DNA of 64,000 nucleotides, taken from contig JACPFT010000020.1 of the NCBI GenBank assembly GCA_016182845.1, forward strand, positions 62,001 to 126,000, given 5' to 3'. Positions 11,666 through 29,237 of the stretch are shown here, in pieces. Made by a program: the position numbers and the translations under genes. The first letter of the stretch is position 1. Each line of letters begins with the position of its first letter. The notes beneath the pieces were generated by a model. It was not told the origin of the DNA, did no database searches, and was given only the letters and a program-made list of their open reading frames with translations. Source of the stretch: Gammaproteobacteria bacterium. Its GTDB lineage: Bacteria; Pseudomonadota; Gammaproteobacteria; Enterobacterales; Permianibacteraceae.

Positions 11666-12291
11666 ACACACGCTACCTGGTCGCCCTGACGGGCGGCATC
11701 GGCAGCGGCAAGACGGCCGTATCGGATCGCCTGGCGGCGCTCGGCGCCGACATCGTCGATACCGATCGCATCGCCCGGGAGCTGGTGCTGCCCGGTTCTC
11801 CCACCCTATCCGCCATCGCCGGGCATTTCGGCGCGCAGATGCTCGACGAATTCGGCCGGCTAGACCGCGCCAGGCTGCGCGAGCGCATCTTCGCCGATCC
11901 GGAGGCGAAACGCTGGCTGGATGCACTGATGCACCCGGAGATACGCCGACGCCTATGGGCCGAGCTGGCGGCGGGCCACGGCCCCTACGGGGTAGCGGTC
12001 ATCCCCCTGCTGGCCGAGGGCGGTCAGACCGAGGGCTTCGATCGCATCGTCGTGGTGGATACGCCCGAAGCCGAGCAAGTTCGCCGCGTCATGGCCCGGG
12101 ATGGCGTCAGTCCGACTCAGGCCGAGGCGGCGTTGGCCAGCCAGGCCACACGCGCCGCCCGCCTGGCCCTGGCCGACGAGCGTCTGGATAATTCCCGGGA
12201 TCTCCCTTATCTGCTCGCCCAGGTCGACGCCCTGCATCGGACGCTTCTTCGGCTCGCGGCCGCCAAAGCCGCCGACCAGACATTACAATAG
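11662..12291 (+). CDS. coaE: Dephospho-CoA kinase
   Basis: A 209-residue P-loop kinase catalysing the last step of CoA synthesis (dephospho-CoA + ATP to CoA). Walker A is GGIGSGKT near residue 10, followed by DTDRIAREL and LMHPEIRR, which are typical of CoaE. The start is taken as TTG 11662, sharing TTGA with the pilD stop. It places the protein start just before VALTGG, as in other CoaE proteins, and no ATG lies in frame at a sensible distance. The pilD-coaE-yacG order is the common gammaproteobacterial one. Confidence 0.93.
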
Positions 12292-12326
12292 GCGCCGTTT
12301 TTCGTCGCCGCGCCAAGAGCTATGCC

Positions 12327-12521
12327 ATGTCCTCGACCCAGACTCCCCTTATCGTCAGTTGTCCCAGCTGCAAGAAGTCCCTGCGCTGGACCAGCGACAA
12401 TCCCTTCCGACCCTTCTGCTGCGAACGCTGCAAGCTCATCGACCTGGGCGAATGGGCCGACGGAGGCCACGCCATTCCCGGCGAGACCCTGCCCGAGAGC
12501 GCGGACGACTCCGAGAACTAA
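12327..12521 (+). CDS. yacG: DNA gyrase inhibitor YacG (zinc-binding)
   Basis: A 64-residue protein with the YacG zinc knuckle CPSC...FCCERC (four cysteines) and LIDLGEWA after it, which is diagnostic of the family. YacG binds GyrB and inhibits gyrase in Escherichia coli. It starts at ATG 12327 with AGAG seven bases before. Gene order coaE-yacG-(nudix) with secA beyond matches the E. coli region, here with the nudix gene convergent. Its stop codon touches the left arm of a large inverted repeat. Confidence 0.93.
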
Positions 12522-25098: not shown

Positions 25099-26201
25099 CG
25101 GATCACACTCAGTAATTCATTGACCACCGTCTCGGTGGCATCGGTATGGGCGCGGGCTCGTGCCGCCTCGGCCATGCGCAGCAGCTCGCCGCGTTCCAGA
25201 CCGACCAGGGCCTGGGCCAGGTTCTCGGGGCTGAGCTCGGCCTGGGGAATCAGGCGCGCGGCGCCAGCCTCGGTCAGATAGCGGGCATTGGCGGTCTGGT
25301 GATCGTCCACGGCATGGGGATAGGGCACGAACAGTGCCGCCACGCCCACCGCCGCCACCTCGGCCACGGTCAGGGCGCCGGCCCGGCAGAGCACCAGATC
25401 CGCCCAGGTGTAGGCGCCGCACATATCGGTCACGAAGGGCGCCAACTCGTGCAGGCTGCCCGCCACGCCGGCGGCACCGTAGGCGGCCTGCACGGCCTCG
25501 GCCTTGTTCCGGCCGGTCTGATGCCAGACCCGGGGCCGCTGTTCTGCCGGCAATAGCGCCAGGGCCTTGGGCAGGACCTCGTTGAAGGCCTGGGCGCCCA
25601 GGCTGCCGCCCACCACCAGGAGGTGCAAAGGACCCTCGCGTCCCGCCAGGCGCTTGGCCGGGGCCGGCAGGGCGGCGATGTCGGCGCGCACCGGGTTGCC
25701 GGTCGTGACCCGTCGGGCGGAGGTGGCGAAGTTCACGGGGAAACCGCTCATCACCAGGCGCGCCAGCCGGGCCAGCAGCTTGTTGGTCAGGCCCGGCACG
25801 GCATTCTGCTCGTGGATGGCCAGCGGCTTGCCGGCCAGCCAGGCCGCCAGGCCGCCGGGGCCGGAGGCGTAGCCGCCCAGGCCCAGGACCAGGGCGGGCT
25901 GGTGCTCTCGCATCAGGCGTAGCGCCTGGGCCACGGCGGAGCAGAGCTTGAAGGGGGCGCTGAGCAGGGTTTTCAGGCCCTTGCCGCGCAGGCCCTTGAC
26001 CCGCAGGAAATCCATGTCTATGCCCTGCTCGGGCACCAGGCGCGCCTCCATGGAGTCGGGCGTGCCCAGCCAGCGCACCCGCCAGCCGCGCGCCTGCAAG
26101 GCCTTGGCCACGGCCAGGGCCGGAAAGATGTGGCCGCCGGTGCCGCCGGCCATGATCAGGGCCAGGGGAGCGGAATGGGCGGCGGTCGCAGCGGTGTTCA
26201 T
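25095..26201 (-). CDS. murG: UDP-GlcNAc:lipid I GlcNAc transferase MurG
   Basis: A 368-residue GT28 enzyme that turns lipid I into lipid II at the inner membrane face. G-loops [19 protein letters not shown] and [11 protein letters not shown] are present, with [11 protein letters not shown] and the donor-site [12 protein letters not shown] and [10 protein letters not shown]. The start is ATG 26201, overlapping the ftsW stop by 4 nt; the open frame continues upstream only as ftsW shadow. Confidence 0.97.
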
Positions 26202-27871
26202 GCCTTCCCCCTCCCCAGTCCGAAATGCACACGCATGCGCCGCTCGTAGTCGATGCGCAGAACGATGGCGATGGCCGCACAGGTGACGATCAGGGAGGAG
26301 CCGCCGTAGCTGACCAGGGGCAGGGTCAGGCCCTTGGTGGGCAGGATGCCGCTGGCCACGCCGATATTGACGACGCATTGCAGGGACAGCCAGACCGCGA
26401 TGCCGAAGGCGATGTAGCCGGCGAAGGGCTGGCCGGCATCGAGGGCGCGGCGGCCGACCCGGAAGATGCGCCAGGTCAGCCAGCCGAAGACCAGGAGCAC
26501 GCTGGCCACGCCCAGCAGGCCCAGCTCCTCGGCCAGGACGGCGAACACGAAATCGGTATGTGCCTCGGGGAGATAGGCCAGCTTCTGCACGCTGTTGCCC
26601 AAGCCCTGGCCGGTCAGGCCGCCTCGCCCGAAGGCGATCAGGGACTGGGTCAGCTGATAGCCGGAACCGTAGGGATCGGCCCAGGGATCCAGGAAAGTGG
26701 TCAGGCGCTTCATGCGGTAGGGCGAGGCGATGGCGATGAACCACAGCCCGGCCAGGCCGGCGGCGCCAATGGCCAGGTACTGCCAGAGCCGGGCGCCAGC
26801 CAGGAACATCATGGCGAAGGCCGTGGAGAACACGACAACCGTGGCACCGAAATCCGGCTCGGCCAGCAAGAGCAGCGCCAGCAGGCCCAGCAGGGCCAGG
26901 GGCTTGAGGAAGCCGGTGACCTGGGTGCGCACTTCCTCGGTCTTGCGCACCAGGTAGTTGGCCATGAACAGCACCAGGGCCAGCTTGACCAGTTCGGAGA
27001 CCTGGAGCGTGAAGCCGCCCAGGCGGATCCAGCGCACCGAACCGTTGACCTCGTGGCCCAGGCCGGGCACCAGGATCAGGGCGAGCAAGGCGATGCCCGC
27101 CAGCAATAAATAGCTACACCAGCGCGCCCAGAAATTCATCGGCACCTGCATGACCACCAGGGCGCCGGCCAGGGCCACCGCCAGGTAGAAGCCGTGGCGC
27201 AGGGCGTAATAGAAGCTGTTGCCGGTTTCCTTCTCGGCGATGGCGAGCGACGAGGAGGTCACCATGATGAGGCCGATGGCCAGGAGCGCGACGGCCGCCA
27301 CCAGGAGCTGGCGATCGTACCAGGCCAGGTGCCGCACCCGCTCGCCCAGGCGCGCCAGGCTCTTGCTCTGGCCGGGCCCGGAGACCTCTACGATAACCGG
27401 CACCGGTTCGGCGGGAAGCTCCCGCTCCAGCGAGGGCTCGGCCGGTGCGGGCTCCGGCGCCGGGGCCCAGGTGTCCGGTTCGGCCGCGTCCACGGCGGCG
27501 ACGGCAAGATCCTCTTGCGCATCCGCTTCGGGTTCCGGCTCCACCGCCGCCACGCGCCGGGCCAGCAGGCTGTCGGTGTCAACCGGCAGCGCCGCAATGG
27601 CATCGGCCGCCTCGGCAAGGACCGGAACGGGCTCTTCCCAGGGCATGCGGTCCTCGTCGGCGCCGGGCTCGTCGCATTCCTCTTGGGTTTCCCAGGGCGG
27701 GTTGGCATCCGCGTGGACTTCCAGCGGCTCTTCCCGGGTTTCGAAGGGCTCTTCCCGAACGTCTGCCCCCTGCGGTTCTTCCCAGGGCGCCGATGCCTGG
27801 CGGTCCTGTTCGTCCCAGTCGGGCAGGCAGAACTCGCCGATCACCGGCTCGATGTGTTTACGCTCCCGCAT
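26198..27871 (-). CDS. ftsW: Lipid II polymerase FtsW with a long acidic N-terminal extension
   Basis: A 557-residue SEDS glycosyltransferase. The membrane core (about 185-557) carries family motifs: GSVRWIRLGGFTLQVSEL, LLAEPDFGATVV, PEAHTDFVFAVLAEELG and the C-terminal PLVSYGGSSLI. It polymerises lipid II with FtsI at the septum. Typical FtsW has a cytoplasmic tail of a few tens of residues; here about 185 acidic, Pro/Glu/Ala-rich residues precede the first membrane helix. They include three Pro-Trp-Glu motifs (near 29, 59 and 77). The start is ATG 27871 (MRERKH), 14 nt inside murD. The extension is in frame with no stop, and alternative internal starts at Met76 or near the first helix cannot be excluded. 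Confidence 0.95.
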   Translation of the reverse strand: MRERKHIEPVIGEFCLPDWDEQDRQASAPWEEPQGADVREEPFETREEPLEVHADANPPWETQEECDEPGADEDRMPWEEPVPVLAEAADAIAALPVDTDSLLARRVAAVEPEPEADAQEDLAVAAVDAAEPDTWAPAPEPAPAEPSLERELPAEPVPVIVEVSGPGQSKSLARLGERVRHLAWYDRQLLVAAVALLAIGLIMVTSSSLAIAEKETGNSFYYALRHGFYLAVALAGALVVMQVPMNFWARWCSYLLLAGIALLALILVPGLGHEVNGSVRWIRLGGFTLQVSELVKLALVLFMANYLVRKTEEVRTQVTGFLKPLALLGLLALLLLAEPDFGATVVVFSTAFAMMFLAGARLWQYLAIGAAGLAGLWFIAIASPYRMKRLTTFLDPWADPYGSGYQLTQSLIAFGRGGLTGQGLGNSVQKLAYLPEAHTDFVFAVLAEELGLLGVASVLLVFGWLTWRIFRVGRRALDAGQPFAGYIAFGIAVWLSLQCVVNIGVASGILPTKGLTLPLVSYGGSSLIVTCAAIAIVLRIDYERRMRVHFGLGRGKA

Positions 27872-29237
27872 GGGCGCCTCCCACCGGCTCTTCCCCAGAC
27901 AGGGCAAGAGCCGACTCGGCGAAGACATGGCCGCGATGCTCGTAGTTCCGGAACATGTCCAGGGAAGCGCAGGCCGGCGAGAGCAGGACGGCATCGCCGC
28001 GCAAGGCCATGCGTGCGCTGGCGGCCACGGCCTCGGCCATGTCCGCCGCGCGCGCCACCGGCAGATCCTCGGGCAGGATCTCGGCGATGGCCTCGGCATC
28101 GCGGCCGATCAGGACAACGGCCCTCGCGCTCGCCGCCAGGGCCGACGTCAAGGGCGAAAAGTCCTGGCCCTTGCCGTCGCCACCCAGAATCAGGAGCAGC
28201 CGGCCGGGCACGGCTCCGCCCAAGCCGGCGATGGCCGCCAGGGAGGCGCCGACGTTGGTGCCCTTGGAATCGTCGTAATAGCCGACGCCGTTCTTCTCGC
28301 AGACGAACTGGCAGCGGTGCGGCAGGCCGGCGAATTGGCGCAGGCGCTCCAGCATGGGCTCCAGGCGACCGCTCACGCTCGCGGCCAGGGCCAAGGAGGC
28401 CAGGGCATTGGCGAGATTGTGCCGGCCCTTGATGCGCAGCTCGCCGGCGCTCAATAAATAGTGGCCCTCCTTGGCCAGCCAGGGCTCTCCCCCCCGGTCC
28501 ATGACGGCCCAGCACGCATCCGCGCCGGTGCCGAAAGTGATTCTATGCCCAGTGAAATCGCTCGGCACCAGCGCCGCCGGCTCGTCGGCATTGACCACGG
28601 CCAGCTCCGCGCCGGCGAAGACGCGCTGCTTGGCGGCCAGATACGCCTCCAGGGTCCCGTAGCGATCCAGGTGGTCCGGCGAGAGATTGAGCAGGGTCGC
28701 GGCCTTGGGCCTGAGACCATGGGTGGTTTCCAGCTGGTAGCTGGACAGCTCCAGGACATAGACATCGGGCACCGGCAGGGCCAGGAGTTCCAGGGCCGGC
28801 GTGCCCAGGTTGCCGCCCACGGCGACCTTGAGACCGGCGGCTTCCAGGAGCTCGGCGGTGAGCGTGGTCACCGTGGACTTGCCGTTGGAGCCGGTGATGG
28901 CGATGACCGGCGCCCGGGCCTCGCGGGCGAAGAGCTCGATATCGCCGATGATGGGCACGCCCAAGGCGCGCGGCGCGTCGAATTCCGGACGGCGGGTGTC
29001 CAGGCCCGGGCTGACGATGATCTCCCGGGCGTAGTTGAGCAGGGGGCCGTCCAGGGAGCCCAGACTGACCAGGGCATCGGGGGCGAAACCCTTCAGTTCA
29101 TCCAGGCCCGGCGGATCGAAACGGGTGTCGGTAACCGCGAAGTCTATGCCCCGGGCGTGCAGATGCCGCGCCACCGCCAGCCCGGTCTTGCCCAGGCCCA
29201 CGATGACACTCAAACCTTTCTGTCCCGACAGCGGCAT
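27858..29237 (-). CDS. murD: UDP-N-acetylmuramoylalanine--D-glutamate ligase
   Basis: A 459-residue Mur ligase adding D-Glu. It shows IVGLGKTGLAVARHL at the N-terminus, P-loop ITGSNGKSTVT near residue 117, NLSPDHLDRYGT and YYDDSKGTNVGA, all typical of MurD, plus the C-terminal LLSPACASLDMFRNYEHRG. It lies 45 bp after mraY and overlaps ftsW. Confidence 0.97.
   Translation of the reverse strand: MPLSGQKGLSVIVGLGKTGLAVARHLHARGIDFAVTDTRFDPPGLDELKGFAPDALVSLGSLDGPLLNYAREIIVSPGLDTRRPEFDAPRALGVPIIGDIELFAREARAPVIAITGSNGKSTVTTLTAELLEAAGLKVAVGGNLGTPALELLALPVPDVYVLELSSYQLETTHGLRPKAATLLNLSPDHLDRYGTLEAYLAAKQRVFAGAELAVVNADEPAALVPSDFTGHRITFGTGADACWAVMDRGGEPWLAKEGHYLLSAGELRIKGRHNLANALASLALAASVSGRLEPMLERLRQFAGLPHRCQFVCEKNGVGYYDDSKGTNVGASLAAIAGLGGAVPGRLLLILGGDGKGQDFSPLTSALAASARAVVLIGRDAEAIAEILPEDLPVARAADMAEAVAASARMALRGDAVLLSPACASLDMFRNYEHRGHVFAESALALSGEEPVGGAHAGA

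Follow-up and report, generated by a model that had tools for sequence, protein, structure and literature searches.

FtsW is an essential and very widespread protein. The gammaproteobacterial form, as captured by the models TIGR02614 and PF01098, shares with the FtsW studied here the SEDS core, the aspartate of the PEAHTD motif, and a position between murD and murG. The difference lies in the cytoplasmic tail that precedes the first helix. The original prediction held that this tail is ordinarily short, and in 169 other FtsW loci lying behind murD it spans 4-52 residues (median 17) with a charge of -3 to +6 (median +1), whereas the protein encoded in our window (the whole 64,000-nucleotide stretch analyzed) has 183 residues before that helix, with a net charge of -33.

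FtsW of Mycobacterium tuberculosis contacts the Z-ring from the cytoplasmic side, a feature it shares with the role proposed below for the tail; it reportedly does so through a basic C-terminal tail that touches the acidic tail of FtsZ, whereas the window FtsW has an acidic N-terminus. An FtsW-FtsZ interaction in that species is cited in the available portion of PMC10036325, where residues 1-99 of M. tuberculosis FtsQ, a disordered cytoplasmic region, are also reported to bind FtsZ and the membrane. By analogy, this FtsQ region may serve as a precedent for a disordered cytoplasmic divisome tail with partners, although it works via an Arg/Ala-rich helix and the window tail is acidic, sits on FtsW, and has only a putative docking role. 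FtsW likewise carries extra polypeptide in the natural FtsW-FtsI fusions mentioned in the accessible text of PMC7614612; there a known partner is joined at the C-terminus of FtsW (in the construct of that paper), whereas here the addition is a disordered N-terminal tail. The same text, which presents an FtsWIQBL structure, discusses the cytoplasmic tail of FtsL in FtsW recruitment. Within the titles and abstract openings covered by a partial literature search, we recognized no description of a long N-terminal extension of FtsW.

Another way of extending FtsW before its first helix was encountered in a different family of the same order (f19), where all four genomes examined encode an in-frame fusion of MurD to FtsW. 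The fusion adds a whole MurD enzyme, whereas the window FtsW adds a disordered tail. The other three fusions are 74%-80% identical to the query over nearly their whole length and have no internal stop. The two largest FtsW frames in our first order-level search proved to be such fusions and not long tails. No announcement of a MurD-FtsW fusion was recognized among the titles and listings that were searched.

The ftsW Gene and Its Translation Start

On the minus strand of the window the genes run ftsI, murE, murF, mraY, murD, ftsW, murG, murC, ddl, ftsQ, ftsA, ftsZ (FtsI, MurD, FtsW, FtsQ, FtsA, and FtsZ were run against Pfam; the other names were read from translations). Hence ftsW occupies its place in the dcw cluster, between a murD identified by Pfam and a murG identified from its translation. 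The SEDS domain is complete (PF01098 positions 2-355 of 356 are matched), and the FtsW equivalog TIGR02614 is passed with 445.7 bits against a cut-off of 337.5; a second FtsW model, PRK10774, is narrowly missed (468.6 against 493). Both RodA equivalogs, TIGR02210 and PRK10794, stay below cut-off, and the subfamily model RodA_shape (NF037961) comes out just above its threshold (153.9 against 150), well short of what FtsW scores. A search of the source genome, which is listed at 100% completeness and 0.09% contamination, returned FtsW and one further SEDS protein (on contig C8), 36% identical, which we take as RodA. By these matches the 557-residue protein is FtsW and is distinct from RodA. Asp440, the aspartate of the PEAHTD motif with a catalytic role, is invariant across 26 aligned sequences.

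Table 1. Features of the ftsW region and of two MurD-FtsW fusions (window coordinates unless a locus is named)
Feature	Position	Strand	Basis
ftsW gene, 557 aa	26198..27871	minus	ORF; Pfam/NCBIfam matches
FtsW SEDS core, aa 188-545	26237..27310	minus	Pfam PF01098 FTSW_RODA_SPOVE, E 7.5e-116
Juxtamembrane stretch, aa 167-183, likely ancestral short tail	27323..27373	minus	Predicted helix 169-180; length comparable to entire tails in relatives
Acidic N-terminal addition (residues 1-166; net charge -36)	27374..27871	minus	Composition; far shorter tails in 169 other loci; unmatched in 58 other genomes
Possible folding-on-binding helices, aa 83-108	27548..27625	minus	AlphaFold2 helices 83-93, 99-108; charge-hydropathy
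Motif MPWEEP, aa 76-81	27629..27646	minus	Translation; AGGA lies 4 nt before Met76, which might serve as an internal start
Motif PPWETQEE, aa 58-65	27677..27700	minus	Translation
Motif APWEEP, aa 28-33	27773..27790	minus	Translation
14-nt overlap, murD end/ftsW start	27858..27871	minus	Sequence; MurD ORF
Shine-Dalgarno-like GGAGG, 5 nt before ATG	27877..27881	minus	Sequence
murD	27858..29237	minus	Pfam; C-terminus 6-13 residues past 19 compared relatives (hand count)
MurD-FtsW fusion, 922 aa	L138:623-3391	minus	Three Mur ligase domains, then SEDS domain
MurD-FtsW fusion, 927 aa	L139:1461-4244	plus	Three Mur ligase domains, then SEDS domain

A single frame is open on the minus strand from the ATG at 27871 to the stop at 26198, so that the tail runs into the SEDS core with no stop or frameshift, as originally predicted (the 183 residues found compare with 185 in that prediction). 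The range first given for the tail, 27270-27871, does contain the extension and also reaches into the first transmembrane helix. Scored against codon usage in 13 neighboring genes (5,892 codons), the extension gives +29.6 bits in the claimed frame and -31.5 to -267.4 in the other five, and its GC content by codon position is 0.85/0.48/0.80. Two opposite-strand ORFs over the extension (27194-28432 and 27219-28457) span both murD and ftsW and were set aside; all three plus frames score negative.

It had been foreseen that relatives whose FtsW starts near the first helix, together with a lack of peptides from the extension, would speak for an annotated start placed too far upstream. Relatives do start there, and the upstream start is nonetheless upheld, since it is fixed by its overlap with murD, by the Shine-Dalgarno site, and by the coding signal of the stretch; a mis-called ftsW start is unlikely. 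In the same vein, the working start might be internal, at Met76 or near the first helix, with most of the extension untranslated or a minor form. The short tails of relatives and the AGGA ahead of Met76 favor this, but the upstream ATG is preceded by a stronger Shine-Dalgarno-like site and overlaps murD, codon bias favors translation of the stretch, and an internal start would leave a murD-ftsW gap of ~210-540 nt, compared with -20 to +25 nt between the murD stop and the ftsW start in 165 of the 169 loci (all but L079, L082, L101, and L174). We accordingly give an internal working start little likelihood, while an additional, shorter FtsW form made from the weaker site at Met76 is possible. 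In these comparisons the start in relatives was the codon nearest the murD stop; the same rule applied to the window selects a GTG at residue 10 and yields a tail of 174 residues rather than the 183 counted from the ATG. One locus, L174, has ~1 kb between murD and ftsW, unlike the other 168 measured.

Composition, Predicted Disorder, and Distribution of the Extension

The tail had been described as rich in Glu, Pro, and Ala, and residues 1-166 indeed hold 31 Glu, 27 Ala, and 25 Pro, along with 15 Asp, nine Arg, and a single Lys. The three motifs named in the original prediction are all present in the translation (Table 1), and they place PWE at residues 29-31, 59-61, and 77-79. At least three PWE arose in 38 of 200,000 composition-preserving shuffles of residues 1-166; because the motif was chosen after looking, the fairer figure is that for any one xWy triplet occurring at least three times, which was seen in 108 of 50,000 shuffles of the extension. 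PWE is absent from all 13 other window genes scanned and from all 169 measured FtsW tails. A DNA pattern for PWEEP has three matches in the source genome, two of them in the FtsW tail and the third in a membrane protein that, by eye, looks like an ABC-transporter permease.

The expectation that the tail is disordered is borne out by prediction for most of the extension. By charge-hydropathy, residues 1-81 and 110-166 fall among disordered sequences and 82-109 among ordered ones, and the acidic bias is strong on both sides of this middle stretch. AlphaFold2, run with 26 sequences, gives block pLDDT values of 37-43 for residues 1-80, 63 and 66 for 81-100, 51 for 101-110, and 33-54 for 111-170, against >80 in much of the membrane core (core residues 400-437 are also low). 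Since the 25 other sequences lack the extension, low pLDDT is expected whatever the state of the tail and is weak evidence of disorder. Together these methods predict disorder over most of the extension and a weak helix at 83-108.

To ask how far the extension reaches beyond this genome, we compared the tail with FtsW proteins from several collections. The 169 loci are those left of 173 after removal of L104 (no upstream murD), the duplicate L152, and two MurD-FtsW fusions. They comprise 79 from named GTDB genomes, 53 from the top of two order-level searches, and 37 fetched mostly for a large open frame, so that the set leans toward long tails. The two genomes of the same family have FtsW tails of 21 and 26 residues. 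The order searched comprises 27 families, some with genomes of 0.2-0.3 Mb, a composition suggestive of Enterobacterales as GTDB defines it. Whole-protein surveys found an FtsW match in 384 of 394 genomes of the order and 338 of 369 of the class, and no second FtsW with the extension appears among the matches listed; three of these start before residue 160 (at 92, 132, and 152), and their tails have 19, four, and five residues. In the named GTDB genomes, searched with the whole protein and with two of six search patterns derived from the extension, none of the 79 measurable loci among the best 80 of 295 matches carries it. With the extension alone as query, 59 genomes returned only the source genome, in which, at E up to 10, it matched only itself. 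Searches of Pfam and of PDB sequences with the extension protein, taken to E values of 10, gave no match, and its DNA has none in plasmids. The whole FtsW has no match in IMG/VR; in plasmids the ten records listed out of 215 match in the core only, beginning at residue 180-185. The relatives searched include no genome of the same genus.

Large open frames elsewhere (up to 856 aa) were considered as possible long tails. All 20 loci fetched, chosen mostly for such frames, have tails of 4-36 residues when read from the start nearest the murD stop, and in most of them an out-of-phase frame stays open across the GC-rich murD. At L162, L168, L171, and L174 the frame closes 18-35 codons ahead of the core and again 6-16 residues beyond it. 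The survey frame lengths for the genomes G417, G574, G624, and G734 (500-840 aa) exceed the frames read at L168, L171, L174, and L162.

Given that the surveys list no other such tail and that residues 167-183 resemble the whole tails of relatives, the extension is most likely a lineage-specific addition placed before a short, ancestral-like stretch. Occurrence in one genome only could also point to a sequencing or assembly artefact that fused unrelated DNA to ftsW. The coding frame that continues into the core, the natural murD overlap, and the completeness and low contamination of the genome speak against this, and we regard it as scarcely credible.

The added sequence has local counterparts. 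The word GGCTCTTCCC (GGGAAGAGCC in the coding sense) occurs five times in the window against 0.40 expected, and four of the five copies lie within 27630-27895, one of them in the murD tail. The extra C-terminal residues of MurD (27861-27896, ending SGEEPVGGAHAGA) contain the GGGAAGAGCC word of the FtsW tail, and the motif DNA of that tail shares it. A marginal internal repeat (approximately residues 27-56 against 59-88) is equalled in five of 150 shuffles. A tandem-repeat origin was rejected: the extension holds short dispersed words and no array. Judging from these words, the extension may reasonably have arisen through duplication of local sequence around the murD/ftsW junction. Because the GGGAAGAGCC word is shared with the murD tail, the repetition of the motifs may reflect duplication rather than selection, which weakens any step from motif repetition to function; the internal repeat argues in the same direction.

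Docking Arm, Neutral Growth, or Compensation

We favor, at about even odds, a tail that is a flexible tether or docking arm of a functional FtsW. On this reading the lineage would have gained, at the FtsW N-terminus, ~165 disordered residues that are acidic and rich in Pro and Ala. They would lie after the murD stop and ahead of the ancestral short tail, and the overlap of murD with ftsW would have been preserved. The tail would act as a flexible cytoplasmic tether of the septal glycosyltransferase, and the three PWE motifs, the weak helix at 83-108, or both might engage a partner close to the inner membrane, such as another divisome protein or an enzyme of lipid II supply. Such binding could tune the recruitment or activity of FtsWI. 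We count in favor the pinned start, the coding frame, PWE above its frequency in shuffles, the predicted disorder, and the conserved core residues. A docking array of PWE motifs is plausible from the sequence: such an array should repeat one motif several times within disordered sequence, and here there are three PWE in predicted disorder. Counting against docking, the searches made turned up no orthologue of the extension, and no partner for the tail was found among the candidates considered. Electrostatic pairing with the tails of FtsQ and FtsI (approximately +9 and +11 by hand count) was set aside because many relatives also have basic tails there. The FtsL tail is of ordinary length by eye.

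A strong rival, ranking close behind and somewhat less probable in our estimate, is a translated tail with no specific partner, one that local duplication and drift enlarged in a GC-rich genome and that is tolerated as the FtsW N-terminus lies free in the cytoplasm. Confinement of the extension to one of the genomes searched, the locally repeated GGGAAGAGCC word that recurs in the murD tail, the marginal internal repeat, and the variation of relatives' tails between 4 and 52 residues all fit such growth. They have to be set against a PWE clustering that exceeds the expectation from composition, the cost of synthesizing 165 residues, and the strong acidic bias before and after residues 82-109.

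The tail might instead compensate for changes in Z-ring accessory proteins. ZapD, which 31 of 40 genomes encode, both same-family ones among them, has no match in the source genome. In the window yacG (named by eye), which begins at 12327, follows directly on coaE, whose end is at 12291; the interval 12289-12327 holds no zapD, although this is the position of zapD in relatives by gene order. ZipA is present; at 245 aa its open frame ranks second shortest among 37 and falls below the 291 and 301 aa of the same-family genomes. However, this is a single co-occurrence, the tail contains no Pfam family, and five other ZapD-negative genomes (G003, G006, G010, G028, and G034) have FtsW frames of 394-413 aa, which leave no room for such a tail and make the link between ZapD and the FtsW tail weak. 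The rest of the eight other ZapD-negative genomes have an FtsW cut by a contig end (G030, 349 aa), a MurD-FtsW fusion (G020), and no FtsW match (G025). Compensation is thus very improbable. A related and only slightly better reading, still a long shot, makes the FtsW N-terminus a multivalent acidic docking arm that replaced a Z-ring or precursor-supply contact, the takeover coinciding with the loss of zapD and the short ZipA, and that would couple lipid II use to the cytoplasmic ring. As a separate observation, the short acidic linker of ZipA (L208, G000:C19:152400-154800) contains SGEEP; the MurD tail has this word too, and it is similar to the EEP words in the tail of FtsW.

Binding to the cytoplasmic N-terminus of FtsW is hard to study where that tail is a dozen or two residues long, and a natural long, acidic, motif-bearing tail offers a handle on what binds there. 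If the tail is neutral, it shows how much extra N-terminal chain FtsW tolerates; if it docks a partner, it would represent a new wiring of septal synthesis to the cytoplasm.
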